Below, piece after piece: positions 28,819 through 57,441 of a DNA stretch of 64,000 nucleotides. The notes under the pieces are model-generated. The model made no database searches and was not told the DNA's origin. It saw only the letters and a program-made list of their open reading frames with translations. A program made the translations under genes and the position numbers. The DNA comes from a virus. The stretch spans positions 1 to 64,000 of the IMG/VR virus record IMGVR_UViG_3300025626_000013; one strand, 5' to 3'. Each line of letters starts with the position of its first letter. Position 1 is the first letter of the stretch.

Positions 28819-31356
28819 TTATCCAACTGATATTGGAATATTTCCATTTCTAGCTATGTTAAAATTGCCGCCTTCATTTTTTGCAGCACTAAAATGCATA
28901 GGATCTTTTTTACTATTCCAATCACCGCCCCAACCTAAACCATGTTTTGCAGCAAGTTCTCTAATATTATTAGGCATATCTGTAACCATCCCAGCGCCAA
29001 ATGAAACACCATACTGAACATAATTTTGGGCTGGGTTAATATCAATTGCTGCTCCATGCGCATGCCAGCTTTTTTTACTTGAATTGGCGATATTTCTATT
29101 GCTATAACCATGCAATACTTTAAACTCATAACCAGCTGCTTCTAAATCATTAATTAATCCTTGGAAGTTCGGAACAAATACTTTAGCAATAGATGTTGAT
29201 AACCCATTCTTTGTTGTAATTTTGCCGAGTGGTCCATTATAAGAATTATCTGCTTGTGTATTTGAATTATTTACCGGCACATTTGGATCAGCTGGGTCAT
29301 ATGACATATCTACTACGCCAACATTTGGGTTAGTGCTAAACTCATTAGTTTGATCAAATTCATCTGATGTTAATAGTATTAAATCGCTCGAGCTCTGTAA
29401 TATGTCATTGTAATAAGTAGCAACATTCATTTTATAGGTATTAGTATATGATGAATTAATTTCTGGAGTGATCACCGCAATCTGCATATTCATTATACCG
29501 CTAGGATCGTAATCATCATATCTTAATTCAAGGGAATCAAAATAGCAAAAATCTTTTATAGCTTCAGCCATTTCAAAAGTTTTTTCATAATTTATTTTAC
29601 CGGCGGTATCATATACTTCATAAGCAATGGCCCGACCTTCTGTTGATAAATCAATAAATCCATTAGGTGTTAATTTTTCGGATTGAATTGGAATATAAAC
29701 CCCTTCCGCAACAACAAAATTAATATCATTTAATTTTTTTAATGTTTTAAATGTATTAAATATTTTAGTATGGGGCACAAGATTCTGCGCAATTCTTATT
29801 CGTTTTCCCATATCATCAATTTTCTCAATTGATTTTCTATCTCCTAATGACCCCATAAATTTAGAAATAGGAATATTTGTATCTAATTCGGTTTTCTGGG
29901 TTATTTCTTTAAAATTTGTAGGATTGAATTCTGGGCTAGGTGCAATGTTTACGGTTCTTGCCACTGCTTTTTCCCGCGGTTGAACTCGACTATATGGGTC
30001 AGACATTCCATTAATAGGTTCTGATTCAATTCTTGGTATTGAAACGCTAGTTTGACTCGTACTTCCACTTGGGCTAGTCAATCTAGCAAATTGCGGCGAC
30101 AAAACACCAAATTCAAATTGTTCTTTTAAAAATTCATCATTAGCTTTATTTAATGGATCTTTTAATTTAGCTCTTACTTCAGAAGTTGTTAAAATCCTAT
30201 CTGTTACTCCACCAGTAGGTGCAGTTTTTTCAATTGAATTTTTTAATTCTTCTGTGGGGTCAATGCTGATTTTTTTATATCCAAGCGATGAATTTTCAAC
30301 ATATTGCTCCATATTAGTAGCTGTCGGTTTTGCTGATTGTGCATTGTTTCGTTGTACATTATTAATTCTAACCGATGCACCGCCGCCGCCTAAACCGGCC
30401 GATACATTTGCACTCACGGCTCTTAAAGCATCACCAGACAAGTCTCCAAAGAAAGTATCCGCAAACATTGCTTTAGCAGAAACTGTTTCGGCATGAACTG
30501 TTTTTTCTGTATAGGAATTAAAATTATACATGTAAATGCCTTGGCCGCCAATAGTTCCGGTGCTGCCAATAACAGACATGTCCTGCGCCGCAATATTCAT
30601 ATTTGGTGCAGTTTGAATAAATTCATTTGCGGCAGTAATATACAAATTATCACCAGCATGTACTTCTATTTTATCCTCCGATCTTAAAGTATATTTACCC
30701 TTTACCGAATCAATAACTGTACCAAGTGTTGTTGAAACATAATTTCCAATATTAGTAATGTTTTTACTTTTTTGAACGATCTCTTGCCAATGTCCAACAA
30801 TTTTTTTACGATAATCGCCTAAAACATTAATCATCCAGCTTCCACCAACTCTTAAATAAAAGTCGCCGCCAACATCCATATCTAAATCGCCGGAAACATT
30901 TAAGCTAAGGTTTCCATAATAAGTTAAATGACCATCACCTTCAACAGCCATATAATAATTATCATCTACTATTTCAACTCTATTGCCTTTAGAATTTATT
31001 AAAATTGTGCCATCTGGTTTAATATCAATACCGGCACCAATTGTATGTTTTAGCAATATTCTTTCATTGGCTAATGTGTCATTAAATTCAAAAACATGTC
31101 CTGCTGGCGTTTCATGAACATCATTTAAAGGATATTGAGCAGACAGCGGCGCATTTAAATCTAAATCTACAAATGGAATTCCATTTGATATATCTAATTT
31201 ATGGAATTTAGCATTTCTTGCAGCCAAATTAACAGAACTTTGATGCCAATATTCTGGTTTAGGGTATGTACCTGAACCTTCTACAAACCCATTAGAGTTT
31301 GACATTATTTGGCTTTCGCTTATAATTGCTTCTTCTTTTTCAAAATTTGTTGTCAT
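28819..31356 (-). CDS. Baseplate spike protein: gp5-type beta-helix plus M15 peptidase
   Basis: 845 residues. N-terminal half has the repetitive strands of the T4 gp5 C-terminal beta-helix (NVSGDLDMDVGGDFYLRVGG, NVLGDYRKKIVGHW). The C-terminus is a D-Ala-D-Ala carboxypeptidase/L-Ala-D-Glu endopeptidase domain of family M15: SWHAHGAAIDI with zinc ligands His765 and Asp772 and DPMHF with His821. In T4 gp5 the enzymatic domain is a lysozyme; here the needle carries a peptidase. Immediately downstream of an amidase and a lysozyme gene. Expected to cut cell-wall peptides on entry. Confidence 0.85.
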   Translation of the reverse strand: MTTNFEKEEAIISESQIMSNSNGFVEGSGTYPKPEYWHQSSVNLAARNAKFHKLDISNGIPFVDLDLNAPLSAQYPLNDVHETPAGHVFEFNDTLANERILLKHTIGAGIDIKPDGTILINSKGNRVEIVDDNYYMAVEGDGHLTYYGNLSLNVSGDLDMDVGGDFYLRVGGSWMINVLGDYRKKIVGHWQEIVQKSKNITNIGNYVSTTLGTVIDSVKGKYTLRSEDKIEVHAGDNLYITAANEFIQTAPNMNIAAQDMSVIGSTGTIGGQGIYMYNFNSYTEKTVHAETVSAKAMFADTFFGDLSGDALRAVSANVSAGLGGGGASVRINNVQRNNAQSAKPTATNMEQYVENSSLGYKKISIDPTEELKNSIEKTAPTGGVTDRILTTSEVRAKLKDPLNKANDEFLKEQFEFGVLSPQFARLTSPSGSTSQTSVSIPRIESEPINGMSDPYSRVQPREKAVARTVNIAPSPEFNPTNFKEITQKTELDTNIPISKFMGSLGDRKSIEKIDDMGKRIRIAQNLVPHTKIFNTFKTLKKLNDINFVVAEGVYIPIQSEKLTPNGFIDLSTEGRAIAYEVYDTAGKINYEKTFEMAEAIKDFCYFDSLELRYDDYDPSGIMNMQIAVITPEINSSYTNTYKMNVATYYNDILQSSSDLILLTSDEFDQTNEFSTNPNVGVVDMSYDPADPNVPVNNSNTQADNSYNGPLGKITTKNGLSTSIAKVFVPNFQGLINDLEAAGYEFKVLHGYSNRNIANSSKKSWHAHGAAIDINPAQNYVQYGVSFGAGMVTDMPNNIRELAAKHGLGWGGDWNSKKDPMHFSAAKNEGGNFNIARNGNIPISVG

Positions 31357-32888
31357 GATATATCTCCCAAAATTTGAGCTGTTGTAGGAGCACCTTTTGT
31401 TGGATCAAATTTATTTTTTCTTTTAAACATTGAAGGCAACCATTCTTCTGGCCAATCGGGATCTTGTTGGGTGCTTGGTTTCATATCCATATGTCCATAA
31501 ATTTCTCCGGCGTCCCATACACTATAAAAGCATTCAGCAATTAATTTAAAAGTTTTTGCTTGAGCATCACTATACCACCGTCCGCCGTATGGATAGCCCT
31601 GCGTACTAAATTTTTCGCCTAATTCGCTTTGCCAATATTCTCGAGTAAGTCCTATGCCCCCGACGCCAGCAACGCCTATTGTTCGCTGATCCATATCTTT
31701 CACATGATTGCCTACTATATTTACTGGTCGACCTCTTTGAATTCTACCATCAGATAAAATAATATAATGATATCCAATACCAGAATAATTATATGGCGGA
31801 TCCATATGCATATCATGTATATGTTGGGCAGTAATCACAGAATCATTTTTAAAATGACCTGTCCAATGATTTACCAATGTTGTAATTTCACGATTCTCTT
31901 TTGCAAAATTAAAATCTGCTATAAGTTCTTCTTTACCAGCAACAATAGGAAATCTATATGGCATATTGGCAGACTTAGTACTAGTTTGATATCCAGCAAA
32001 TTTTTGCGAGGTGGTAATCGGTGCTGTACTTATTGCTGGATTCGGAATTGAATTGCCATTTGTAGTATTAGCAGTAATACTAGTATCTATTCCAGCAACA
32101 GCTTCTTCAATTTCTTTAATTTTTGCGTCACTGCGTTCATTTAATGGTAATGCTTCTATAATTTTATTAATAGCCGTATTCTTATCGCCATTTATAACTA
32201 GCGGAATAATTTTAGATTTTACTTCATCATTTAAGTTTAAAAAAGATATAGCATTTTCAATTTCATTATTTTTTGATGATGAATAAGTTGCTAAGAATCC
32301 AGCACTTTCTGTTAAATTTTTATAATTGTTATTAACTGATCCTAAAATAGAATTAAGTATGGCTAAGCGAGACTGAGTTAACGCATTAGTAGCACCGGGC
32401 ATAGCAGCATTATAATTAGAAGTAATAAATGTTTCGCTTGCTTGTGCATTTGTTTCAATTGGAATAAACGGAGAAATTATATTAAACGGTGCCTTTGTAT
32501 TTGTCACTTGACTTAGTGCATTAGCCATTGCAAAGGGTTTACCTAAAGTAAGAATGAAATTATTTTCGCCATCTCCTACCAGGGAAGATGAGGTCATTTT
32601 AGTAATATCTTGTTTTTCACTTGTTGCACTTCTTAATATATTTTCATAGCCAGGTACAGCTGGGGTAAATTCTACAACTTTTGCATCCGGTATACTTATA
32701 TTTTTTGATTTAATTTCTGGTAAGGATTGAGTATAGTTTAAGATACCGTTTACCACTAATCCTATTTCATTAAAAACTTCGTCTTCTAAATTTTTTAATC
32801 CATAAACACCCTTTGCTACATTAATAATAGGGGTATCGCCTGGAAATCTTGCTGCCAAATTTCCAAGTAATTGTGAAATAGTACTCAT
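31353..32888 (-). CDS. Virion N-acetylmuramoyl-L-alanine amidase
   Basis: 511 residues. The C-terminal about 170 residues are an Amidase_2 domain: LVNHWTGHF (zinc His341), GIGYHYIILSDGRIQRGRP and GHMDMKPSTQQDP (zinc His466). The N-terminal 330 residues are helical and Asn/Thr-rich, with no motif I recognise, and may anchor the enzyme in the hub. Overlaps its neighbours by 4 and 1 bases between the gp5 OB/lysozyme protein and the spike protein. Cuts the lactyl-amide bond of peptidoglycan if active. Confidence 0.85.
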   Translation of the reverse strand: MSTISQLLGNLAARFPGDTPIINVAKGVYGLKNLEDEVFNEIGLVVNGILNYTQSLPEIKSKNISIPDAKVVEFTPAVPGYENILRSATSEKQDITKMTSSSLVGDGENNFILTLGKPFAMANALSQVTNTKAPFNIISPFIPIETNAQASETFITSNYNAAMPGATNALTQSRLAILNSILGSVNNNYKNLTESAGFLATYSSSKNNEIENAISFLNLNDEVKSKIIPLVINGDKNTAINKIIEALPLNERSDAKIKEIEEAVAGIDTSITANTTNGNSIPNPAISTAPITTSQKFAGYQTSTKSANMPYRFPIVAGKEELIADFNFAKENREITTLVNHWTGHFKNDSVITAQHIHDMHMDPPYNYSGIGYHYIILSDGRIQRGRPVNIVGNHVKDMDQRTIGVAGVGGIGLTREYWQSELGEKFSTQGYPYGGRWYSDAQAKTFKLIAECFYSVWDAGEIYGHMDMKPSTQQDPDWPEEWLPSMFKRKNKFDPTKGAPTTAQILGDIS

Positions 32889-33793
32889 TATCCGTAACTC
32901 CTCAATGTCTCTTCAGCAAAATTAATTCTTTTTTGCAATGATGGCGAGGTATACACTCCATTAACTATCGTATTTTCAGGCCTCTCATAATATCTCGAGA
33001 CAGTATATGCCGCTTCTTTTGCCGTTTTAGCATTTAACAGACGATTATTTGCGCTTCTTTCTTTTCCCCGCAATTCATGCAAAGTAAATGCTAATTGCGT
33101 ATTAAGGGCTCTATGATCACTACCTTTTTGTCGAGCAAATTCTTTTAAGTCTGTAAGTCTTCCTGCTCGCCATTGAGCCAATCCTTCGGCCTCCATCCCT
33201 ACATCATCAGGATTATATGCTTTAGGATTTAAAGCCGATTCTGCATAAAAGTTACCAACTATACCGGCAGACTGTGCTGGTGAATAACCGGCGTTAACAA
33301 AGTAATTAAATATTTTTTCTGAATTATTATTACCAACTAAATTTTCATCTATTTCGGTATCTGATTGTGTTGTTTGGTTGCCAAGTGGAGATGGTGAACT
33401 AGCTGGTGAGCTAATCGGAGAACTTGTTTGGGTTTGAGCCGGCAACGCTGCTTCGGCAGCTGCTTGTATTTCGGAAGGAGATTCTATTGTTAGCACCGGC
33501 CCCAATATAAGAGGAATTTGCGATGCTTCTCCATCTAAAAAGAAACCAAATACTTGAGCGCCAGGCAGCATTCTTGGCATATCGCCTAAACCAGAAATAC
33601 CGCTTGAGTTTGCTGGCATTACACACTGTGCCCATGGCAAATACTCATTCGGAACTTCAGCCGAATTATTAGTATGCAATCCATGAATTCTAACTTTAAA
33701 TCGGCCAATTTCAAGAGGATCATCGTTATCGACAATTTTCCCAAAAAACCAATTTGCACTTGCTCCACCAAGCTGATCAGATATAGTTTTCAA
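32888..33793 (-). CDS. gp5: Hub protein: gp5-type OB-fold plus tail lysozyme
   Basis: 301 residues. Residues 14-103 are a gp5 OB-fold (NWFFGKIVDNDDPLEIGRFK, PWAQCVMP, AQVFGFFLDGE, IPLILGPV). A Ser/Pro/Gln linker (116-150) leads to a phage tail lysozyme domain: SEKIFNYFVNAGYSPAQSAG, then NFYAESALNP with Glu185 as likely catalytic acid and EGLAQWRAGR. In T4 these two domains and the beta-helix are one chain; here the helix is in the gene at 28819. Equivalent to the N-terminal two thirds of gp5. Confidence 0.87.
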   Translation of the reverse strand: MKTISDQLGGASANWFFGKIVDNDDPLEIGRFKVRIHGLHTNNSAEVPNEYLPWAQCVMPANSSGISGLGDMPRMLPGAQVFGFFLDGEASQIPLILGPVLTIESPSEIQAAAEAALPAQTQTSSPISSPASSPSPLGNQTTQSDTEIDENLVGNNNSEKIFNYFVNAGYSPAQSAGIVGNFYAESALNPKAYNPDDVGMEAEGLAQWRAGRLTDLKEFARQKGSDHRALNTQLAFTLHELRGKERSANNRLLNAKTAKEAAYTVSRYYERPENTIVNGVYTSPSLQKRINFAEETLRSYG

Positions 33794-35197: not shown

Positions 35198-35932
35198 TTA
35201 ACGGCCCGCCATCGAAGTTTTAAATATAGAATCTACAAATTGAATAGTATCTGGTTTAATCACTTTAATTATTTTTAATTTTTCATTTTCTGTATTAAGA
35301 CGATCAAAATGTGTTATTTCTGTTAACAATGCACCTGGGCCGATTGCTGGATCTATATCCACTGTACTATTATTATATTCATAATGATGCGCACTTAAAT
35401 GTTCTCTTGCAAATGAATCTATTGCAATAGATTTCGTAATACCATTATAAACATATGACAACAATTCTCCTTGAGAAAATGCTTTTTCACCGCCAATAAC
35501 AAGCTGATTCAAATCTAAATTTCTTTTTATAATTTGCCCAGAAACTCCGGACGTCATACCTCGAATTGTTGTTCCAACGGTTAATTGCTCATTCATTCCA
35601 GCTATTAATACATCTCGTATTACTACCGTTGTATTTGGATATATATCTTTAGCTTTTTTTAAAAGCTCTGCATTAGTAAGTGGCCAACCTTGTCGTCTTA
35701 AATGATCATTAAGCAAAAAAAACGTCCAATAAAAATTATCATTATTATATAATTTTTGCGAAACATTATCTGGTCTATCACCTTCTAAAATAGTATATTT
35801 TATATATGAACCCGCTGCATCTTTTAATTTATCAACCACATCAGTATATGCAGACAAATTTTGTATACTTGATGGAGTAATCTCATCACCAAAATAATAT
35901 GGAACCCGCGGAAAAGTAGAAAAATATGACAT
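35198..35932 (-). CDS. gp53: Baseplate wedge protein gp53
   Basis: 244 residues (T4 gp53 is 196). Starts YFSTFPRVPYYFGDE and contains the typical YTILEGDRPDNVSQKLY and FYWTFFLLN with RQGWPLTNAELL. gp53 joins wedges into the hexagonal baseplate. The middle insertion (TVGTTIRGMTSGVSGQIIKR) is a small beta domain often found in marine versions. One-base overlap with gp48. Confidence 0.88.
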   Translation of the reverse strand: MSYFSTFPRVPYYFGDEITPSSIQNLSAYTDVVDKLKDAAGSYIKYTILEGDRPDNVSQKLYNNDNFYWTFFLLNDHLRRQGWPLTNAELLKKAKDIYPNTTVVIRDVLIAGMNEQLTVGTTIRGMTSGVSGQIIKRNLDLNQLVIGGEKAFSQGELLSYVYNGITKSIAIDSFAREHLSAHHYEYNNSTVDIDPAIGPGALLTEITHFDRLNTENEKLKIIKVIKPDTIQFVDSIFKTSMAGR

Positions 35933-36858
35933 TAGTAACCTCCCAAAATATCGTCTTTAGTGAGTGTGGCTTCTTCCATAAATGTCATAGAAATATCTAC
36001 TTCCGAAAATTTGCCCCCGTCTAAAAAGGACATGCTGCTAGGATTATATGTTGCACTAAAGCTTTTTAAATGAGATTTTTTAATCTTAGTTGCTAAGCGG
36101 TTTTCGCTAGAGCCATATACCAACTTAATATCAAATTTATTTGGGAATCTATATGCGACAGGTAGTCCTGTCGATGCTTCTTTTATAGTCTCTGGATAAA
36201 GCTCTGTTCTAAAAAACTTTATAATATTTGTAATCGCATCGCTTTCATCTTGTGTTGTTGGTTGCAATTTAAAAATAAAGCTAAATTCCCGCATATTTAC
36301 AGATCTAAAAATTGCTCTAGTATTTGGATTTGGAGTAGTTTGTAATGCTGATGTGACAGCGCCAGCAACTCCTTCACTTAAAAATTTGGTAGAGTACCGG
36401 GCAATTAACGCCCTCGCCATATCTTGAGAAGCATTACCACTGATAGCAGTAAGCATATCACTTGCTTCTTGTTTACCAGCATCAAATAATGCCGCCAAAG
36501 TACTGGCCCCACCCACTGCTCCTAACGCTTTATTAATTCCAGCACCAAATGCCATAAGATCAACTGGACCAATATCTACTCCATCATTAATTTGTAAAGA
36601 AGGTGGCATATATAATACTACCTTTTTTCCAACATTGATACTTTGATTTCCATTTGTATTTTGTGACACAGCACTACCGGATTCTTGCGAACCACCAATT
36701 CCAAGTTGTGTTATATCTACTTGCCCATCTAAGTTTCGGCCGCGCGGATCACCATTGCTTACGCTAGGTGGATTAGTTACTGAGACTGAAAAAATAATCT
36801 TTGCTTTATACTTATCCGTGCGCTCTAGAGGAAACTGTAATTTTTGAGATTCGGCCAT
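35932..36858 (-). CDS. gp48: Baseplate/tail-tube cap protein gp48
   Basis: 308 residues. KKVVLYMPPSLQINDGVD, then NPNTRAIFRSVNMREFSFIFKL and FFRTELYP are signatures of gp48, which caps the hub and starts tail-tube growth together with gp54. The middle is Ala/Gly-rich. First gene behind the late promoter at 36911. gp54 shares the fold; gp48 is preferred because of its place next to gp53 and the length. Confidence 0.83.
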   Translation of the reverse strand: MAESQKLQFPLERTDKYKAKIIFSVSVTNPPSVSNGDPRGRNLDGQVDITQLGIGGSQESGSAVSQNTNGNQSINVGKKVVLYMPPSLQINDGVDIGPVDLMAFGAGINKALGAVGGASTLAALFDAGKQEASDMLTAISGNASQDMARALIARYSTKFLSEGVAGAVTSALQTTPNPNTRAIFRSVNMREFSFIFKLQPTTQDESDAITNIIKFFRTELYPETIKEASTGLPVAYRFPNKFDIKLVYGSSENRLATKIKKSHLKSFSATYNPSSMSFLDGGKFSEVDISMTFMEEATLTKDDILGGY

Positions 36859-36868
36859 TTAATTATCC

Positions 36869-36876
36869 AATAAATA
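36869..36876 (+). promoter_or_regulatory. Possible plus-strand late promoter (AATAAATA)
   Basis: Seven of eight bases match TATAAATA on the plus strand in the 65-base divergent gap between gp48 and gp4. Predicted start about 36882, leader about 42 bases to the gp4 ATG. Weaker than the other octamers. Confidence 0.35.
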
Positions 36877-36910
36877 GAGGTAGAGTCAATGAAAACATCT
36901 TACTAGTATT

Positions 36911-36918
36911 TATTTATA
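36911..36918 (-). promoter_or_regulatory. T4-type late promoter octamer TATAAATA
   Basis: Exact octamer on the minus strand in the divergent gap. Predicted start about 36905, 46 bases before the gp48 ATG. Would drive gp48, gp53, gp27-like and the three hub hydrolase genes, all linked by overlaps. Confidence 0.7.
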
Positions 36919-36923
36919 TAAAA

Positions 36924-37421
36924 ATGAAAAAAACATATTCGGGCAAATTTGTTCCAAAAAATCCTAATAAATATGGCGGTGATTATACTGCTATAGTGTA
37001 TCGGTCCTTATGGGAGCGCCATTGCTTCAAATGGTGCGATCAAAATAGTAATGTCAAATCTTGGAGCTCAGAAGAAGTTGTAGTGCCATATTTTTATGAT
37101 GTTGATAAAAAATATCATAGATATTATGTTGATTTAAAAATAACCTTTGTGGACAACAAAACTTTATTAGTAGAAATTAAACCAGAAAAAGAAACCCACC
37201 CACCAAAAAATCCTGGACGTAAAACTAAACAATATTTGCAAGAGGGGCTAACCTATGTTAAGAATGTTAACAAATGGAAAGCTGCAAATAATTATGCTAA
37301 AGATAGGGGTTGGAATTTTGTTATTTGGACAGAAAATACATTAAATGAAATGGGTATTATGCCTAAAATGAAACCACTAAAACCTTTGAAACCTATGACA
37401 AAAAAGAAAAAAAAGCTATAA
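36924..37421 (+). CDS. gp4: Head completion protein gp4
   Basis: 165 residues from the ATG at 36924; the longer frame from 36801 runs back through the promoters and into gp48 and is not used. MKKTYSGKFVPKNPNKYGGD, VYRSLWERHCFKWCDQN, SEEVVVPYFYD, HRYYVDLKITF and LLVEIKPEKE match T4 gp4 (150 residues), whose fold is TnsA/restriction-endonuclease-like. It joins heads to tails and may trim DNA ends. The basic tail KPMTKKKKKL fits DNA contact. Opens the only plus-strand block. Confidence 0.88.
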   Translation: MKKTYSGKFVPKNPNKYGGDYTAIVYRSLWERHCFKWCDQNSNVKSWSSEEVVVPYFYDVDKKYHRYYVDLKITFVDNKTLLVEIKPEKETHPPKNPGRKTKQYLQEGLTYVKNVNKWKAANNYAKDRGWNFVIWTENTLNEMGIMPKMKPLKPLKPMTKKKKKL

Positions 37422-37460
37422 TTCTTAAGCAAAATTTTCAAAATAAATTTAAAATATTAT

Positions 37461-37468
37461 TATAAATA
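37461..37468 (+). promoter_or_regulatory. Late promoter octamer TATAAATA directly before an ATG
   Basis: Exact octamer; with T4 late-promoter spacing the predicted start is 37474, the A of the ATG of the next gene. There is no Shine-Dalgarno in the 53-base gap after gp4. This implies a leaderless late transcript. Confidence 0.65.
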
Positions 37469-37473
37469 GTATT

Positions 37474-38061
37474 ATGACAGATATATTTAATAAATTAGAG
37501 TTAGAAGCATTCAAAGCCGGGATAACTCCACGAACAAAAGAATCAATTGCGTGGTTTCGCAAAAAAGCGCAGAGCATGCGTAATATAAATCGTTCTGCTC
37601 TTTTGAAAGATGAAACCCTCGAATTAGGTAATAAACCTATTGTGGGTAATATGTTTATGTTCTTTTATGATCCTAAAACAAAAGATACTCTTCCATATTA
37701 TGATTCTTTCCCTTTAACTATTATTGTAGGAAAAGCTCCGGGCGGATTTACTGGGTTAAATTTACATTATCTTCCACCTGTACTTAGAGCCAAAATGCTT
37801 GATGGATTAGTAGAAATTACAAATAATTCAAAATATGACGAAACTACTAAATTTAAAGTAAAGTATGATATGCTGCAAAAAGCAACTTCTTTAAAATATT
37901 TTAAGCCATGCTTTAAAAGATATTTAACAGCACATACTCGTAGCCGCTTTGCTTATGTGCCACCACCCGAATGGGAAATTGCCACCTTTTTACCGACCGC
38001 GGATTTCCAAAAAGCAAGCAAATCTACTGTCTATGCGGAATCACGAAAGGCTATAAGCTAA
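37474..38061 (+). CDS. Conserved T4-like virion protein (possible gp2-position)
   Basis: 195 residues. NMFMFFYDPKTKDTLPYYDSFPL and GGFTGLNLHYLPPVLRAKMLDGL are strongly patterned elements I recognise as conserved in marine T4-like phages without a secure name. The Arg/Pro C-terminal part (TRSRFAYVPPPEW) is basic. In T4 gene 2 (DNA end protector) neighbours gene 4, so a DNA-end or neck role is possible but unproven. No Shine-Dalgarno; a late promoter octamer ends 5 bases before the ATG. Confidence 0.6.
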   Translation: MTDIFNKLELEAFKAGITPRTKESIAWFRKKAQSMRNINRSALLKDETLELGNKPIVGNMFMFFYDPKTKDTLPYYDSFPLTIIVGKAPGGFTGLNLHYLPPVLRAKMLDGLVEITNNSKYDETTKFKVKYDMLQKATSLKYFKPCFKRYLTAHTRSRFAYVPPPEWEIATFLPTADFQKASKSTVYAESRKAIS

Positions 38062-38591
38062 TGACTTTTAGAATAGATGATTTTTTATCTACTATTGGTG
38101 GCAGGGGCGGTTTAGCCATGCCCAATCTTTATTCAATTGAACTTCCGGCAATAGCTGGTTCCAATTTAACACTTAATGAAAAAAATATTACGTGTAAGGC
38201 TATGAATCTTCCGGGTAGACAAATTGCTACTGCTGAACGATATATTGGTCCTAAAGCAGAAAAAGTTCCATACACATTTATGCAAGATGATATATCTTTA
38301 TCGTTTAATATTACAAATGATTATGCAATACGAAAATATTTTGATCTTTGGATGAATTTAATTGTTAACCAAACGACCTACGAAATATCATATAAAACAA
38401 ATTATCAAAAAGATGTTATTTTACGCGCACAACAAAAAACCGAATCTAATGGAATGATAAGCCCTTATAGTGTGCGATTAGAAGGCGCATATCCTACAAC
38501 AATGAATGCTAATGAATTTAATAATGAAACGACTAACGGACTAGTAGAATTAAATGTCCAATTGTCTTACTATAACTGGAGCCCCTTATAA
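38061..38591 (+). CDS. Tail-tube family protein (gp19/gp54-like)
   Basis: 176 residues from the ATG at 38061, which overlaps the upstream stop as TAATG; the longer frame starting at 37971 is out of place inside the previous gene. PNLYSIELPAIAGSN, MNLPGRQIAT, YFDLWMN and an RLEGAYP...VELNVQLSYYNW end follow the tail-tube fold of gp19 (163 residues) and gp54. In T4 gp54 starts the tube; in this block it is followed by gp26 and a tape-measure-like gene, so it may be a tube initiator. Which of gp19 or gp54 it equals is not decided. Confidence 0.75.
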   Translation: MTFRIDDFLSTIGGRGGLAMPNLYSIELPAIAGSNLTLNEKNITCKAMNLPGRQIATAERYIGPKAEKVPYTFMQDDISLSFNITNDYAIRKYFDLWMNLIVNQTTYEISYKTNYQKDVILRAQQKTESNGMISPYSVRLEGAYPTTMNANEFNNETTNGLVELNVQLSYYNWSPL

Positions 38592-39301
38592 TGGCATTGC
38601 CTAAACTGAATGATATCCCAAAATATGAATTAACAATTCCGTCAACTAACCAAACAGTTAAATTTAGACCATATCTTGTAAAAGAAGAAAAAGTTCTAAT
38701 GTTGGCGTTTGAATCCCAAGATCAAAATGCGGCGTTGAATGCTGTTGTTGATACGTTACGTGCATGCATACAAGAAGATCTTGATATAGATAAATTAAAA
38801 TTATTTGATATTGAATATATTTTTACAAAAATTAGAGCCAAATCTGTTGGAGAATCAGTAGATATTATTGTAACATGCGTCGAATGCGAACACCAAAATG
38901 AAGTAAACATGACTATTGACGATGTAAATGTAACTATACCAGAAATATCAAATAAAATTAATATTACCAAAGATATTTGTGTTGAATTGCAATGGCCAAC
39001 ATATATTAAAACAATTGAAAATTCTTTACTTATGACAACCGAATCCGAAACTATTCAGACAATTGAATTAATGGCGGACTGTTTAGTCTCACTTGAAACA
39101 GAAGAAGAAAAAATATTATTTAAAGATGAGACTAGAGAAGAAATTATTAACTTTTTAGGATCTATGACTAGCACACAATTCGATCTTATAAAATCTTATA
39201 TTGAAAAAATGCCGGTTTTAGAAAAAAAGCATACCCACACATGTGAAAATTGTAAACATACTAGTGAAATACTTATCCGGAATCTTACCGATTTTTTTTA
39301 A
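38591..39301 (+). CDS. gp26: Baseplate hub assembly protein gp26 (zero-frame product)
   Basis: 236 residues. Belongs to the T4 gp26/gp51 type: KYELTIPSTNQTVKFRPYLVKEEK at the start and two Cys pairs, CVEC (96-99) and CENC (218-221), likely one zinc site. Ends TDFF in an eight-T run immediately before TAA. Homologues I recall continue in one frame with a segment that here lies in the -1 frame (see 39298-39480). In T4 the protein is needed to build the hub. One-base overlap with the tube-family gene. Confidence 0.85.
   Translation: MALPKLNDIPKYELTIPSTNQTVKFRPYLVKEEKVLMLAFESQDQNAALNAVVDTLRACIQEDLDIDKLKLFDIEYIFTKIRAKSVGESVDIIVTCVECEHQNEVNMTIDDVNVTIPEISNKINITKDICVELQWPTYIKTIENSLLMTTESETIQTIELMADCLVSLETEEEKILFKDETREEIINFLGSMTSTQFDLIKSYIEKMPVLEKKHTHTCENCKHTSEILIRNLTDFF
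39292..39299 (+). promoter_or_regulatory. Probable -1 ribosomal frameshift slippery site (T8)
   Basis: Eight T residues cover the last two sense codons of gp26 (TTT TTT) and the first base of TAA. Tandem tRNA slippage by one base on T-TTT-TTT leads into TTA ATA TGG and a 60-codon open frame. A homopolymer before a stop is a classic arrangement in tail assembly chaperone genes. Confidence 0.75.
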
Positions 39302-39480
39302 TATGGTCGAGTAATGATTCATTATATAATCATTATAAGACCAACTTTGGGTTAATGCAACATCATAATTATTCTCTACATGAGTTGGAGAATATGATGC
39401 CCTGGGAACGAGAAATTTATGTGGCTTTATTAATACAACACTTAGAAGAACAAGCAGAGAAAATTAAGAGGAAAATGTAA
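39298..39480 (+). CDS. -1 frame extension of gp26 (gp26 fusion product)
   Basis: Sixty codons in the -1 frame relative to gp26, no in-frame ATG until codon 20, ending TAA at 39478-39480. The TAA overlaps the ATG of the next gene (TAATG), as expected for a translated region. Sequence elements: NDSLYNHYKTNF, LMQHHNYSLHELENMMPWER and EIYVALLIQHLEE, a conserved C-terminal segment of gp26/gp51-type proteins. A fusion by frameshift would be 296 residues. Alternative: an ATG-started 41-residue peptide (ATG 39355) or a sequencing error in the T run. Confidence 0.78.
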   Translation, partial: LIWSSNDSLYNHYKTNFGLMQHHNYSLHELENMMPWEREIYVALLIQHLEEQAEKIKRKM

Positions 39481-41594
39481 TGGCTACGTTAGCAAATATT
39501 AATGCCCGGCTCTCAGCTGAGAATGGAGACTTGCAAATAGATCTTGCAAGCCTGGCCGAAAGCATTTCCATACTAGCCGCAAATACTTCACAAACTAATA
39601 ATAGTATTTCATCAAATCAATCTCTTTATTCTTTAACATCACAATTTGATTTATTCATAGATAAACAAGAAGAACTTATTAAAGCTGCCACTCTTTCGAA
39701 CGCACTTCTTACGGATATAAAAAAGAGTGGTATATCTGGCAAGATGTCTTTTGGTAATCGTATTAAAGAACAATTTGCAAATAACCCAATAACCAGAGGT
39801 GCTGCAGTAACTGCTAATATTTTAGGAGCTCCTCGTCGCGCATTGGGCGGCATTATTAATAGCGCTAAAAATATAGCAACTATTCCAGGGCAAATGCTAG
39901 GCGGTGGTCTTGATAAAGCTAAGACAGCAATAAAAGGTGCATTAAAAATGCCATTTACTGCTGTTGGCAATGCATTCCAATCAAAAAGTGTAAAAACTCT
40001 TGTTCTGTTAACAGAAAATAATATAGACATTCAAAAAGATATATTAAATGAATTAGTTACTTTAAATAAAACTATTGCCGATTATATTAAGGCCAAAAAA
40101 CTAAAGAATTTAGACAATCTCGAAGATCAGCGCGAAGCTAAAAAAATAGTCAATCGCGGTTTATTTGCTTCTGCCCTTGGTAATAGTAATAATCAAAATA
40201 ATGAAGACGAAAATGCTGGCAAGAGCGGAGAGGGATTATTTAGGAAGCTGGGTGGTTGGCTATTAAAAGGGGCCGGCTTAGGGGTTGGCTTAGGTGCACT
40301 TAATAAAATTAGAAAAATGTTTAAAAAACCTACTGCACCAAAAGCAAAGATTGGCTCAACCCCAAAAGTAAGACCCACTAGTATTCCAAATGTACCTAAA
40401 TCAGCGCCTACTGCACCGAAATTATCACCACCAGCTATACCGCCTAATTCATCCACTGCGCCTAATTCATCCACTGCGCCTAAATCAGCGCCTACTGCAC
40501 CGAAATCAGCACCTACAGCGCCTACTGCACCGAAATCAGCACCTACAGCGCCTACTGCACCGAAATCAGCACCTACAGCGCCTACTGCACCGAAATTATC
40601 ACCACCAGCGCCTACTGCACCGAAATTATCACCACCAGCTATACCGGCTAATTCATCTACTGCGCCTAAATCAGCGCCTACTGCGCCTACTGCGCCTAAA
40701 TCAAACCCGCCAGCTAATTTAAATGTAAAACCTACGCCTAAAGCGGCTTTAAATAAAGCAATAAGACAACAATTAATTAAAGAAGCGACTGAAAAAGCTG
40801 CAGCAACTGCCGCTCAAATAAATGCCGGAAAAACTGCAAAAGCATCTCTAGCAGCGGCTGAAAAAGCCGCATCAAAAGCCGCATCAAAAATAGCCGCAAA
40901 ACAAGTGGCAAAAGCAGCTGCAAAGTCCGCCGCTAAAAAATTGCCATTTGGCCTTGGCCTTATACCTGCTTTAGCTTTTGCAGTAAGTGAAGTTATGCAA
41001 GGAGATTTCACAGGCGCCGCAATGGAAATTGCATCTGGCACAGCGGCAATTTTGCCGGGACCAGGAACAGCTGCATCAGTCGGTATTGATGCGGCTATTT
41101 TAGCTAGGGATTTAAATAGCACAGACCCAAATGTTGAAAAAAATGAAAAAATAGAAAAGGCCAAAAAAGATTCGGTTCAAACCAAATTAAATGAATTTGA
41201 TGCCGACCAGGCTAAAAAGAAAACATTGTTAATACACGAAGCTTCTAAAGATGTTGCTAAAAGAGCTGACTATGAAAAGGCCGGCATTGCCGCAAAAGAA
41301 TTAGTAAAAAAAGTAACTATAACTAAACCTGTGATATCTTCTAATGAAATAATTATAAATGTAGCCCAGCAAAAAATATCGGCAAATCTTTCAAATGATC
41401 AAACCAATTTATCACAAAGGTTACAAGAAGCCCAGGGAACTTTTGATGAAGTAAAACAGCAGGCAAATACTACTGTAATAATGCCTGCTGTTCCAAATAA
41501 TATTGATAATAGTTCAACTAGTGTTAGTCATACAACACTTACTGCATCAGGGTCTAGCTCAATAGATAGATCCGATAAAGTAGTGCCCATTTAA
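39480..41594 (+). CDS. Putative tape-measure / hub protein (gp29-like by position)
   Basis: 704 residues, helical, with GAGG 8 bases before the ATG. N-terminal part is coiled-coil-like, then a Gly/Ala region (GGLDKAKTAIKGALKMPF). A central (A)PTAPKS repeat follows, then Ala/Lys helices (AAAEKAASKAASKIAAKQ), a hydrophobic stretch (LPFGLGLIPALAFAVSEVM) and PGPGTAASVGIDAAIL. Tape-measure proteins have such helical and hydrophobic segments, and the gene follows a tail assembly chaperone-type gene. T4 gp29 is 590 residues. Function is from position and composition; no signature motif found. Confidence 0.6.
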   Translation: MATLANINARLSAENGDLQIDLASLAESISILAANTSQTNNSISSNQSLYSLTSQFDLFIDKQEELIKAATLSNALLTDIKKSGISGKMSFGNRIKEQFANNPITRGAAVTANILGAPRRALGGIINSAKNIATIPGQMLGGGLDKAKTAIKGALKMPFTAVGNAFQSKSVKTLVLLTENNIDIQKDILNELVTLNKTIADYIKAKKLKNLDNLEDQREAKKIVNRGLFASALGNSNNQNNEDENAGKSGEGLFRKLGGWLLKGAGLGVGLGALNKIRKMFKKPTAPKAKIGSTPKVRPTSIPNVPKSAPTAPKLSPPAIPPNSSTAPNSSTAPKSAPTAPKSAPTAPTAPKSAPTAPTAPKSAPTAPTAPKLSPPAPTAPKLSPPAIPANSSTAPKSAPTAPTAPKSNPPANLNVKPTPKAALNKAIRQQLIKEATEKAAATAAQINAGKTAKASLAAAEKAASKAASKIAAKQVAKAAAKSAAKKLPFGLGLIPALAFAVSEVMQGDFTGAAMEIASGTAAILPGPGTAASVGIDAAILARDLNSTDPNVEKNEKIEKAKKDSVQTKLNEFDADQAKKKTLLIHEASKDVAKRADYEKAGIAAKELVKKVTITKPVISSNEIIINVAQQKISANLSNDQTNLSQRLQEAQGTFDEVKQQANTTVIMPAVPNNIDNSSTSVSHTTLTASGSSSIDRSDKVVPI
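40489..40600 (+). repeat. 30-bp tandem coding repeat in tape-measure-like gene
   Basis: About 3.5 copies of a 30-base unit encode SAPTAPTAPK; looser relatives extend from about 40395 to 40725. Only single-base differences between the tight copies, so length may vary between isolates. Confidence 0.85.
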
Positions 41595-55126: not shown

Positions 55127-55203
55127 TGGTACTCCCCGAGGGACTCGAACCCCCAACCTAAGCGTTATGAGCACTCAGCTCTAACCAATTGAGCTAGAGG
55201 AGT
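55127..55203 (-). tRNA. tRNA with CAT anticodon (Met or Ile2)
   Basis: 77 bases. Acceptor ACTCCTC/GGGGAGT, D-arm GCTC...GAGC, loop CTCATAA, T-arm GGGGG-TTCGAGT-CCCTC, encoded CCA. The loop fits elongator Met or lysidine-modified Ile(CAT); initiator features are not seen. Confidence 0.88.
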
Positions 55204-55208
55204 ATATT

Positions 55209-55292
55209 TGGTGGGGGGTAATGGAATCGAACCATTCGTGAGTCACCTCGGCGGAGTTACAGTCCGCTGCCACACCTTGTAGCATACCCCCC
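55209..55292 (-). tRNA. tRNA-Tyr (GTA)
   Basis: 84 bases, class II with a long variable arm. Acceptor GGGGGGT/ACCCCCC, anticodon loop CTGTAAC, T-arm AATGG-TTCGATT-CCATT, encoded CCA. Confidence 0.88.
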
Positions 55293-55349
55293 GATTATAT
55301 AATTGGACCCTTATTCATTATCCGATTACCGGCAGTCTATATCAGGTCT

Positions 55350-55407
55350 CACCCGCTGGAGGGTGTAGTGTTTTGGTATGAGTGGTGTGATTCGAACCCA
55401 CATTATT
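55350..55407 (-). pseudogene. tRNA 3'-half remnant and adjoining hairpin
   Basis: A T-arm-like GTGGG-TTCGAAT-CACAC (one mismatch) runs into an acceptor strand CACTCAT-A and a CCA (3' end 55374). No matching 5' acceptor (ATGAGTG) or D-arm exists upstream, because the small ORF at 55412 takes that place. Just downstream, 55365-55350 forms CACCC-TCCAGC-GGGTG. A decayed tRNA is most likely; a structured RNA is the alternative. Confidence 0.6.
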
Positions 55408-55411
55408 CTTT

Positions 55412-55543
55412 TTAGCGATCTTTAATTTCATAAACTTCTTTATAGATATTACCAATATCTTTTGCCCCTTGATTATAACCAACAAGCCATCCAATTGCGC
55501 TGCCACAAATAACTAAACAACCAGCAATTAAAACCATTTCCAT
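55412..55543 (-). CDS. Small membrane protein (43 residues)
   Basis: ATG 55543 with GGAG 7 bases upstream, stop at 55412. One hydrophobic segment (VLIAGCLVICGSAIGWLVG) and a charged tail (YKEVYEIKDR). It occupies the place where the 5' half of the broken tRNA would be expected. Function unknown. Confidence 0.62.
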   Translation of the reverse strand: MEMVLIAGCLVICGSAIGWLVGYNQGAKDIGNIYKEVYEIKDR

Positions 55544-55569
55544 AGTAAACTCCATTATATATTTTTAAT

Positions 55570-55644
55570 TGGCTCCCCAACTTGGATTCGAACCAAGGAC
55601 ACACGGATTAACAGTCCGATGCTCTACCGCTGAGCTATTGGGGA
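55570..55644 (-). tRNA. tRNA-Asn (GTT)
   Basis: 75 bases. Acceptor TCCCCAA/TTGGGGA, D-arm GCTC AGCGGTA GAGC, anticodon loop CTGTTAA, T-arm CTTGG-TTCGAAT-CCAAG, discriminator G and encoded CCA. Confidence 0.9.
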
Positions 55645-55670
55645 ATATTATAATATTATATATCTTTTAA

Positions 55671-56291
55671 TTAAGATGATGTTTCGAGAGAATTGCCATT
55701 TTTATCACATTCAGTAATAACTGGATTACAACGCATTTCAAAATAATTTTCTACAAAAGTCCAACCCAATGCTTCAATACCTTCTTGATAGTCTTCATCG
55801 TACGTCGCTTCAATTTCGTCTATCATTTTATCAACATCTGAAAGCTTAGGTCCACTTGTTCTAATGTCCCAAATGTCTTCCCAAAAACAATCATCTACAC
55901 AAATCATTTCGGCATCTGGATAGTCTTCAGTAATATCAACATATTCCTCATCTATAGATGGTACTAACATTTTATGCATAATTTGAAATGGGGCCATATC
56001 CGGATCTACAATAATATTATTGGATTCATCAATAATATGAAACCCATGTTGATCAGCAACATCTTCAATATTATTATAATATTCAGAGGCATTAATCCAT
56101 TCAGCAATTTCGGCATCAGTTTCCGGCACTTCAATTAACCACTCACCCCAACGCCATCCCATTTCTTTTGAAAGATAGGCCCATTTACCAATATCTTTTT
56201 CATCGTTAGTTAATTCGTTAAGCGGGCGTTTAAAAGTATAAATTTCAGTAATAGCTTTTTTATAAGAAGATTCTAATTTATAATATTTCAT
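55671..56291 (-). CDS. Acidic hypothetical protein
   Basis: 206 residues, strongly acidic (EEYVDITEDYPDAEMI, DEIEATYDEDYQEG), Trp-rich block WGWRWGEWLIEVPETD near residue 46. No domain recognised. Sits between tRNA-Asn and tRNA-Gly in the tRNA cluster. DNA-mimic proteins can look like this, but that is speculation. Confidence 0.6.
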   Translation of the reverse strand: MKYYKLESSYKKAITEIYTFKRPLNELTNDEKDIGKWAYLSKEMGWRWGEWLIEVPETDAEIAEWINASEYYNNIEDVADQHGFHIIDESNNIIVDPDMAPFQIMHKMLVPSIDEEYVDITEDYPDAEMICVDDCFWEDIWDIRTSGPKLSDVDKMIDEIEATYDEDYQEGIEALGWTFVENYFEMRCNPVITECDKNGNSLETSS

Positions 56292-56316
56292 ACTGTTAAT
56301 CCTATAATTAATTTGG

Positions 56317-56390
56317 TGGAGCGGGTAAGGAGAATCGAACTCCTATCATCAGATTGGAAATCTGAGGTCTTACCATTACACAATACCCGC
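56317..56390 (-). tRNA. tRNA-Gly (TCC)
   Basis: 74 bases. Acceptor GCGGGTA/TACCCGC, anticodon loop TTTCCAA, T-arm AGGAG-TTCGATT-CTCCT, discriminator T, encoded CCA. Reads GGA. Confidence 0.9.
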
Positions 56391-56396
56391 TTAATA

Positions 56397-56529
56397 TTAT
56401 TCTTCCATCAACGATTTGAGTTTTTTAGCTTCTTGAGCTTGTTTTTCAATAGCTCTATTTACAATCCCAATATTCTACGAACAGCCACAGGATCATCGGT
56501 CATAATGCTGCCACCGTCATTCATCTGCT
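56397..56529 (-). pseudogene. Duplicated C-terminal gene fragment (copy B)
   Basis: Encodes NDGGSIMTDDPVAVRRILGL, the end of the gene at 56724, without its N-terminal half. In the -1 frame the reading runs on as IVNRAIEKQAQEAKKLK and then SLMEE to a stop at 56397-56399, which looks like the original C-terminus. This suggests a frameshift that happened before the duplication. Confidence 0.65.
56438..56529. repeat. 92-bp direct repeat, copy B
   Basis: Matches 56703-56794 in 90 of 92 bases (differences at 56498 and 56525). It flanks the gene at 56517 together with copy A. Confidence 0.9.
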
Positions 56530-56702
56530 TCCCAATACCTACAATAAAAGTGTTTGCCACACGCATCAATCTCTGCTTGTGGATAACCTTGTTCCAACAG
56601 CCAAGGAATAATACTTTCATCTTCGAGGAAGTCTGCTGGCAAGGGCTTAGGAAACCCATACTTCCATCCGCTGGGCGGATCACACATCAATAGTTTCGAC
56701 AT
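56517..56702 (-). CDS. Small conserved protein inserted between repeats
   Basis: 61 residues from ATG 56702, one base outside copy A of the repeat; an ORF start at 56714 would begin inside the repeat. LMCDPPSGWKYGFPKPLPAD, IIPWLLEQGYPQAEIDA and a Cys-rich CGKHFYCRYWEADE end. The 'P.GW.YGFPK' plus 'W...GYP' pattern is one I recall in other marine phages, function unknown. Its stop lies in copy B. Confidence 0.65.
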   Translation of the reverse strand: MSKLLMCDPPSGWKYGFPKPLPADFLEDESIIPWLLEQGYPQAEIDACGKHFYCRYWEADE

Positions 56703-56794
56703 CTTGTTTTTCAATAGCTCTATTTACAATCCCAATATTCTACGAACAGCCACAGGATCATCAGTCATAATGCTGCCACCGTCATTCATATGCT
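56703..56794. repeat. 92-bp direct repeat, copy A
   Basis: Covers the 3' end of the gene at 56724 and the 20 bases before the ATG at 56702. Partner of 56438-56529, offset 265 bases. Confidence 0.9.
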
Positions 56795-56939
56795 CTACAA
56801 TTTGTTCAAAATAAAAGCGAGCATCCGCATCTTCATCCAAAAGGCTAGCTGCAGTTCGAAAGAAGTTACGTAACTTCATATCACTTGTGCCATCATTGGC
56901 CGCCGCTTTATATGTTTTACCTGGACGCTGATTACCCAT
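56724..56939 (-). CDS. Small hypothetical protein (repeat donor)
   Basis: 71 residues: GNQRPGKTYKAAANDGTSDM, then a helical part (LRNFFRTAASLLDEDADARF) and NDGGSIMTDDPVAVRRILGL. The frame stops one codon after ILG; the -1 frame would extend it by about 12 codons here and by a longer tail in copy B, so the present stop may result from an old frameshift. GAGGAGA precedes the ATG. Function unknown. Confidence 0.62.
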   Translation of the reverse strand: MGNQRPGKTYKAAANDGTSDMKLRNFFRTAASLLDEDADARFYFEQIVEHMNDGGSIMTDDPVAVRRILGL

Positions 56940-56955
56940 TTTTATCTCCTCTTAT

Positions 56956-57039
56956 TGGTACCCGCGGCCGGACTCGAACCGGCACGCCTTACGGCCACAG
57001 ATTTTAAGTCTGTTATGTCTACCATTCCATCACGCGGGC
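56956..57039 (-). tRNA. tRNA-Leu (TAA)
   Basis: 84 bases, class II. Acceptor GCCCGCG/CGCGGGT, anticodon loop ACTTAAAAT with TAA, variable arm GGCCGTAAGGCGT, T-arm GCCGG-TTCGAGT-CCGGC, encoded CCA. Reads TTA. Confidence 0.9.
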
Positions 57040-57045
57040 TAACTC

Positions 57046-57273
57046 TTATTTGTCCATCAATTCAGCTTTACGCTTTTCAACAGCTGCAAGTCGCTGTGCT
57101 TCTAATTCGATACCAGCTTCTTTATCACGACCCATAACCAGCAAAATGATTGCCGAAATAAGAGGCGAAATCAATAGTGTGACTACAAACCAAAGCCATC
57201 CATTTCGGCCCCAATTGTTAGCCCAATAGCCAACTAGTGCTGAAAACACTACTGCAATTAAAATAATATCCAT
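57046..57273 (-). CDS. Small two-helix membrane protein
   Basis: 75 residues. Two hydrophobic segments (DIILIAVVFSALVGYWA and WFVVTLLISPLISAIILLVM) around an NNWGRNG loop, then a charged helix (RLAAVEKRKAELMDK). Topology suits a small holin-like or stress protein, but nothing decides. Between two tRNA genes. Confidence 0.62.
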   Translation of the reverse strand: MDIILIAVVFSALVGYWANNWGRNGWLWFVVTLLISPLISAIILLVMGRDKEAGIELEAQRLAAVEKRKAELMDK

Positions 57274-57302
57274 TTACTCTTCCTTAAACTTTTTTCGATG
57301 TT

Positions 57303-57347
57303 TGGAGTCAAGCCAGGGAATCGAACCCACTTACCCATTTTTATCTC
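57303..57347 (-). pseudogene. tRNA 3' remnant joined to a copied gene leader
   Basis: TGGG-TTCGATT-CCC is a shortened T-arm followed by GCTTGAC-T-CCA (3' end 57303). Where the anticodon arm should be there are 17 bases (57331-57347) identical to 56932-56948, the ribosome site and start of the gene at 56724. The 5' tRNA half is missing. Confidence 0.6.
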
Positions 57348-57362
57348 TTACACAATACTTTA

Positions 57363-57441
57363 TGGTGATCTCTGTAGGACTCGAACCTACGACCTAGTGC
57401 TTAGAAGGCACTTGCTCTAAATCCAGCTGAGCTAAGAGACC
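57363..57441 (-). tRNA. tRNA-Arg (TCT)
   Basis: 79 bases with a long D-loop. Acceptor GGTCTCT/AGAGATC, anticodon loop CTTCTAA, stem AGTGC/GCACT, T-arm GTAGG-TTCGAGT-CCTAC, encoded CCA. Reads AGA. Confidence 0.88.

Follow-up and report, generated by a model that had tools for sequence, protein, structure and literature searches.

A predicted −1 ribosomal frameshift that would join gp26 to a gp51-type C-terminus in a tail assembly chaperone gene of a marine T4-like myovirus

The gp26-type gene of a marine T4-like myovirus was analyzed within the first 64,000 nucleotides (the window) of a virus record of 83,948 bases. With high probability, as judged from sequence comparisons, this gene specifies a tail assembly chaperone that is made in a short and a long form by −1 ribosomal slippage on a run of T. 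Four lines of evidence make this the best reading of the locus: the conservation of the slip heptamer and of the reading frame that follows it, the homology of the frameshifted extension to the C-terminus of gp51, the lack of a Shine-Dalgarno (SD) sequence at the first ATG of the extension, and the predicted chaperone fold of gp26. The same evidence bears out a preliminary description of this DNA, which had proposed a −1 frameshift with the layout of the G/GT chaperones. At the level of sequence, a short and a long frame are joined by a −1 shift at a conserved slip site near the end of the short gene. The locus is very probably a well-supported new example of a frameshifted tail assembly chaperone, a kind of gene that is already in print; because the general idea has been published, the surprise is limited.

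Reading frames and family membership

In the T4-like hub region of the window, the minus strand encodes members of the tail tube cap, wedge, and hub-lysozyme families; the plus strand encodes head closure, DNA end protector, and tail tube proteins, gp26, and a 704-residue protein. The features of the locus are as follows.

38061-38591, plus strand: preceding tail tube related gene, 176 aa (start chosen here); phrog_45 tail tube, E 8.5e-30
38591-39301, plus strand: gp26-type gene, predicted short form of the tail assembly chaperone (TAC-N), 236 aa; stop TAA at 39299-39301
39278-39282, plus strand: weak SD-like stretch CGGAA, a candidate placed by eye, upstream of the heptamer
39292-39298, plus strand: slippery heptamer T TTT TTT, with 0-frame codons TTT at 39293-39295 and TTT at 39296-39298, directly 5′ of the stop
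39298-39480, plus strand: −1 frame extension, C-terminal part of the predicted long form (TAC-NC), 60 codons plus stop TAA at 39478-39480
39304-39343, plus strand: predicted stem-loop, candidate frameshift stimulator; MFE −15.3 kcal/mol, z −3.52
39480-41594, plus strand: next gene, possible tape measure protein, 704 aa; assigned by position only

The stop of the preceding gene overlaps the start of gp26; this upstream gene also gave weak matches to PF23849 and PF06841, below the cut-off. The gp26 gene ends with GAT TTT TTT TAA in a run of eight T (39292-39299), and its 0-frame heptamer has the X XXY YYZ form required of a canonical bacterial −1 cassette. The stop of the −1 frame overlaps the ATG of the 704-residue gene (TAATG; ATG at 39480), and the predicted products are 236 residues without the extension and 296 residues with it. 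In each of these respects (the end of gp26 in an eight-T run, the −1 frame open for 60 codons to TAATG, and the two product lengths) the preliminary description was reproduced exactly.

The motif NNTTTTTTN, in frame and within the last 14 codons, occurs in only 1 of the 70 ORFs of at least 100 aa in the window, namely gp26; the count covered both strands of a purely mechanical ORF list. A −1 frame that stays open for 60 codons or more beyond the stop is not in itself unusual, being present in 26 of the 70 ORFs. Two other contigs carry the region, L001 with 100% identity to the window over 3890 bases (35591-39480) and L002 with 98.5% identity over 5302 bases, and both have the same eight T at the run. 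A megablast search of 38400-39700 against phages gave no match.

Two minor features of the surrounding hub region were seen. The minus-strand ORFs 28819-31356 and 32888-33793 both match phrog_430 (baseplate hub subunit and tail lysozyme), at profile positions 327-505 and 16-105, respectively, and are separated by an amidase/endolysin-like ORF (31353-32888). This arrangement may reflect a hub-lysozyme protein that is split and accompanied by other lysis domains. A plus-strand ORF called from TTG (36801-37421) overlaps a gene on the opposite strand, and its true start is probably a later ATG, since its head closure match begins at residue 44.

The gp26 protein matched PF12322 (T4_baseplate) with an E-value of 4.8e-51 and 174 bits, against a cut-off of 24.5, and matched positions 5-232 of 282 in phrog_150 (E 3e-53). 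The extension takes up the phrog_150 profile where gp26 stops (positions 236-279, E 3.4e-6). In addition, residues 6-59 of the extension matched positions 62-115 of 121 in phrog_634 (gp51, baseplate hub assembly catalyst; E 2.9e-25), and a tblastn search with the extension hit 788 phage records (E ≤ 1). A PDB sequence search returned nothing for the gp26 profile and two chance-level rows for the gp51 profile, and an NCBIfam search returned one row, below the cut-off.

In T4 (locus L082), gp26 is the equivalent of the short form and gp51 that of the long form. Both are PF12322 members, and they span phrog_150 positions 14-235 and 13-280, respectively. In a profile comparison (hhalign, 97.7%), the alignment of the short form to T4-type gp51 ends at residue 202 of 249. 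This end point and the phrog_150 junction at 235/236 indicate that the short and long forms part at the slip site. The preliminary description had taken the extension for the normal C-terminus of gp26/gp51-type proteins. That identification stands as far as the extension is homologous to the in-frame C-terminus of T4-type gp51, but T4 gp26 itself does not have the segment.

By these sequence comparisons, the extension is the piece that is annotated as a separate gene, gp51, in many cyanophages. A passage of Sullivan et al. 2010 (PMC3037559) describes cyanophage gp51 as about 20% of the usual length and without the first ∼200 residues, and the word "frameshift" is absent from the main text of that paper. 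The shortness of cyanophage gp51 would be explained if gp26, read in the other frame, accounts for the 200 residues that gp51 lacks. We therefore suggest a single annotation for gp26 and gp51 of these phages, as one chaperone gene with a frameshift. In the cyanophage records S-WAM1, S-WAM2, S-CAM1, and ACG-2014b/d, no feature is listed under the extension match.

Conservation of the slip site and alternative explanations

An in-frame NNT TTT TTN within 14 codons of the stop was found in 188/188 gp26-type loci, a figure that describes the frameshift type and not all T4-like phages, since most of the loci were retrieved with gp26 of the frameshift type or with the extension as query. The −1 frame holds the gp51 segment in 182/182 loci with enough downstream DNA to be testable; in the other 6, the contig runs out 13 to 56 bases from the stop. 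Included in the 188 are L001 and L002, which are near copies of the window, and left out are 14 of 202 loci (L082, L083, L084, L093, and L193-L202), which are the two-gene loci of T4 type plus the copy of the window itself. The hosts represented include Prochlorococcus, Synechococcus, Pelagibacter, Methylophilales, Cronobacter, Aeromonas, Vibrio, and Pseudomonas. Among the first 80 related viral contigs, gp26 ends with T TTT TTN near the stop, and the −1 frame was found for all 76 that have a detectable gp51 segment; none was detected in the remaining 4. Slip motif and frame also agree in 11 loci inspected around the window's clade, 7 of which were new. Nine named phages have the same slip site and −1 frame: P-SSM2, Cronobacter phage S13, Aeromonas phage Ah1, Pseudomonas phage pf16, Vibrio phage PVA23, Pelagibacter phage Mosig, Methylophilales phage Melnitz-3, S-CRM01, and BUCT-ZZ01. 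The conservation of the T run and the frame break in relatives, which the preliminary description had posed as a question, was seen in the frameshift-type relatives examined, and the pattern it had named as contrary evidence, a separate ATG-started gp51 segment with no slip sequence, was found in none of the 188 gp26-type loci.

For comparison of codons, 59 representatives were taken from the gp26-type loci at <80% protein identity. The codon before TTT ends in T in 59/59 (69% expected from the same genes) and encodes Asp, Ser, Asn, Gly, Ala, or Thr, and the next codon is TTT in all of them (72% expected from the same genes); the representatives are related to one another, so these contrasts are not probabilities.

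The T run itself is 6 nucleotides long in 147/188 loci, 7 in 1/188, and 8 in 40/188; among the representatives it is 6 nucleotides long in 39/59. Its shortness in most loci makes both an indel error and transcriptional slippage unlikely as the common mechanism. An artifactual frame break, arising from a sequencing or assembly indel in the homopolymer, or else a pseudogene, might be suspected because runs of T are error-prone and because the nearest contigs, L001 and L002, are likewise IMG/VR contigs. Against this, the break is present in every testable locus, including the nine named phages, and most of these loci have only 6 T; the extension also remains open and conserved. The probability of such an origin is negligible, and for the family as a whole it is refuted by the named phages. 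The long form could also arise by slippage of RNA polymerase instead of the ribosome. The eight T of the window might permit this, and a poly-T run alone fits both mechanisms, yet most loci have only 6 T and NNT TTT TTN is invariant in its phasing to the codons; we regard transcriptional slippage as most improbable.

A different possibility is that the T run is incidental and that gp51 is a separate small gene, translated from its own ATG (39355 in the window) or from an earlier GTG or TTG. Separate gp51 genes are indeed annotated in database records, for example at 7217-7390 in P-SSM2 and 3055-3189 in Mosig. Moreover, the P-SSM2 type has an ATG near the slip site, at codon index 5, and some start-type codon (ATG, GTG, or TTG) precedes index 20 of the extension in 32/57 representatives. 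Several observations nevertheless make a separate gp51 start very improbable. The first ATG of the extension lies at a codon index of at least 20 from the slip site in 44/57 representatives, and in these it is preceded by ∼18 conserved codons, with residues such as L-S-H-D-S-L-x-N-Y-Y-K-T-N-F. Pairwise mismatch in the codons before the first ATG of these 44 representatives was 0.36, 0.25, and 0.50 at positions 1, 2, and 3, respectively, which suggests that this stretch evolves as protein in the −1 frame. The first ATG also appears to have no ribosome-binding site: the mean anti-SD energy was −0.7 kcal/mol before the first ATG (57 representatives), compared with −1.0 at random sites within genes (57) and −4.5 at gp26 starts (52). 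Upstream of the slip site, the −1 frame is closed within 16 codons, with a start-type codon in 2/59 representatives. A heptamer with T before TTT is kept in 59/59 representatives, and the records of Cronobacter phage S13 (L085, ∼2987-3149) and Aeromonas phage Ah1 (L086, ∼2993-3158) have no gene annotated over the −1 extension.

Proposed mechanism and candidate stimulators

Under ribosomal −1 slippage, most ribosomes would halt at the TAA after the T run and release the 236-residue short form. On T TTT TTT a minority would move back by one base as both Phe tRNAs pair anew, probably aided by the hairpin 5 nt downstream, and would then read 60 codons in the −1 frame to give the 296-residue long form. 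The λ G/GT pair suggests, by analogy, a short form that coats the tape measure protein, which may be the product of the neighboring 704-residue gene, and a long form whose extra C-terminal helices recruit parts of the tail tube or hub. We infer the slippage itself, along with its rate, the effect of the hairpin, and the job of each form.

In −1 cassettes the downstream structure usually lies about 5-9 nt after the heptamer. The predicted stem of the window starts 5 nt 3′ of the heptamer and would supply the downstream structure required of a canonical −1 cassette; none of 200 shuffles was as stable. A similar stem was predicted in L003, L004, L006, L204, and L205 (−18.7 to −22.1 in 72-nt folds). 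Covariation gave no support to the stem of the window's clade, with 1 of 14 pairs changed on both sides and 114/500 shuffles as good. The P-SSM2 clade has a stem that differs from that of the window and says little about covariation because its arms are nearly invariant in 38 sequences. More broadly, the 60-nt segments 3′ of the slip site had a mean z of −1.3, with z < −2 in 22/57 representatives, compared with a mean of −0.2 and z < −2 in 2/59 for control segments inside the gene. RNAalifold, run on 57 representatives without gaps, found no common structure, and many relatives have little structure and no strong hairpin.

An internal SD sequence was the second candidate stimulator. In L001, whose DNA is identical to that of the window, the best anti-SD energy near the heptamer was −3.5 kcal/mol (control, −0.6). 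The mean upstream of the slip site in the 59 representatives was −6.0, with a peak for segments starting at −18 to −12. This signal is modest when set against synonymous shuffles (−6.0 versus −4.5), of which a mean of 43% per locus were equal or better. Unlike the heptamer and the frame, which are conserved, the stimulators appear to differ from lineage to lineage.

Six tRNA genes (Met, Tyr, Asn, Gly, Leu-TAA, and Arg) are located at 55127-57441 on the minus strand. The tRNA-Leu(TAA) reads TTA, which is the first −1 frame codon after the slip; this may be a coincidence.

Predicted fold, known systems, and ancestry

The AlphaFold model of gp26 had a pLDDT of 90.2. A structure search with this model gave 3fgx (Z 7.7) and 2ob9, the HK97 tail assembly chaperone (Z 6.9), ahead of a third row at 3.4; Z-scores below 8, as for 3fgx and 2ob9, may reflect a common arrangement only. 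We take 3fgx to be a chaperone relative. Residues 1-86 of the gp26 model align with 2ob9 with an rmsd of 3.9 over 83 residues and 8% identity, and the 150 residues of gp26 that follow contain two CxxC motifs. The modeled gp26 thus has a predicted chaperone fold that resembles the HK97 tail assembly chaperone. A model of the T4-type long form has three helices beyond the junction. It retrieved no chaperone among the PDB matches listed, and in BFVD the named rows near the top were gp51/gp26 family members. In T4, gp26 and gp51 are listed as hub assembly chaperones; gp51 is required for assembly and is absent from the final particle, and genetic studies put gp26 in the hub itself, as stated in an excerpt of a T4 review (PMC3004832).

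The gene downstream of gp26 was scanned for tape measure similarity in the window and in relatives. Two of nine downstream genes had a tape measure match at E 1e-4 or better, in Vibrio phage PVA23 (phrog_58, E 2.8e-7) and in S-CRM01 (phrog_6090, E 1e-4, behind a much better endolysin family match), and pf16 gave a weak match (E 0.0085). No tape measure profile matched the 704-residue protein of the window or the downstream genes of S13, P-SSM2, Ah1, Mosig, and Melnitz-3 (6 of the 9 scanned), and phrog_1283, the family of T4 gp29, matched none of the nine. A tblastn search with the 704-residue gene found 37 phage records, all with partial matches and with no clear tape measure identity. In Mosig and Melnitz-3, one or two small genes intervene between gp26 with its extension and the next long gene; BUCT-ZZ01 lacks the next long gene and has a late sigma factor in its place. 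The 704-residue gene carries tandem repeats rich in Ala-Pro-Thr-Lys (40395-40720), the number of which probably varies among close relatives, since the alignment with L002 in this region is gapped and fits several registers.

Tail assembly chaperones of T4-like phages are reportedly the subject of a 2022 paper by Vladimirov, Gautam, and Davidson (Virology 566:9-15). According to excerpts of two papers that cite Vladimirov et al. 2022, T4-like phages have short and long chaperone forms, in some cases encoded by two genes with no frameshift (the PRFect paper, PMC10885494), and poly-T is a known −1 signal in T4-like TAC-N genes (the Adele paper, PMC12846349). The gene studied here is like the chaperones of these accounts in its predicted short and long forms and in the poly-T slip site of its TAC-N gene. 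The preliminary description knew of no described frameshift in T4-type gp26. This holds for cyanophage gp26/gp51 as such, for which no description was found among the matches listed (Vladimirov et al. 2022 being known to us through citing papers only), but not for T4-like phages in general, whose TAC-N poly-T sites are in print, as an excerpt of PMC12846349 attests.

The proposed chaperone is also like λ G/GT, in which, from an excerpt of PMC5009743, a −1 frameshift near the end of the chaperone gene yields a short major and a long minor product that serve as the tape measure chaperone; here, T TTT TTN lies right at the end of the gene. A further parallel comes from Pseudomonas phage Adele, the Vandenendeviridae, and the Andersonviridae, for which an excerpt of PMC12846349 reports a −1 frameshift inferred from conservation at a poly-T motif. 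The extension of the Adele-type chaperone carries its own gene annotation and lies immediately 5′ of the tape measure gene. Unlike the slip site of the window, the motif of Adele, the Vandenendeviridae, and the Andersonviridae is GTTTTT, and these are other phage families (same excerpt).

T4, Aeromonas phage 25, and Klebsiella phage 05F have the short and long forms as separate genes 26 and 51, and no slip motif was seen at their gp26/gp51 junctions. In T4, unlike in the window, gp26 and gp51 are on opposite strands. In the T4-type loci examined, the long form is encoded at full length in one frame and not as a detached segment. Among ten contigs fetched with T4 gp51, the long form is in one frame with no slip motif at the junction in nine; four of these nine have a slip motif at codon 25, far from the junction.

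Most simply, a single ancestral gene with the frameshift would have been duplicated, each copy then keeping one product. We lean, with some reserve, toward a frameshift that is ancestral to the T4 superfamily, with lineage-specific stimulators; T4 would have frozen the two products as genes 26 and 51, and cyanophage gp51 would be the tail of gp26. If ancestral, the frameshift would have persisted in the marine lineages as well as in a number of enterobacterial, Aeromonas, Vibrio, and Pseudomonas lineages. The stimulators would then be a hairpin in the clade of the window, another hairpin in that of P-SSM2, and an internal SD sequence elsewhere.

In the tenth contig fetched with T4 gp51 (L201), the gp51 frame is broken after 120 residues, though the match spans 247.
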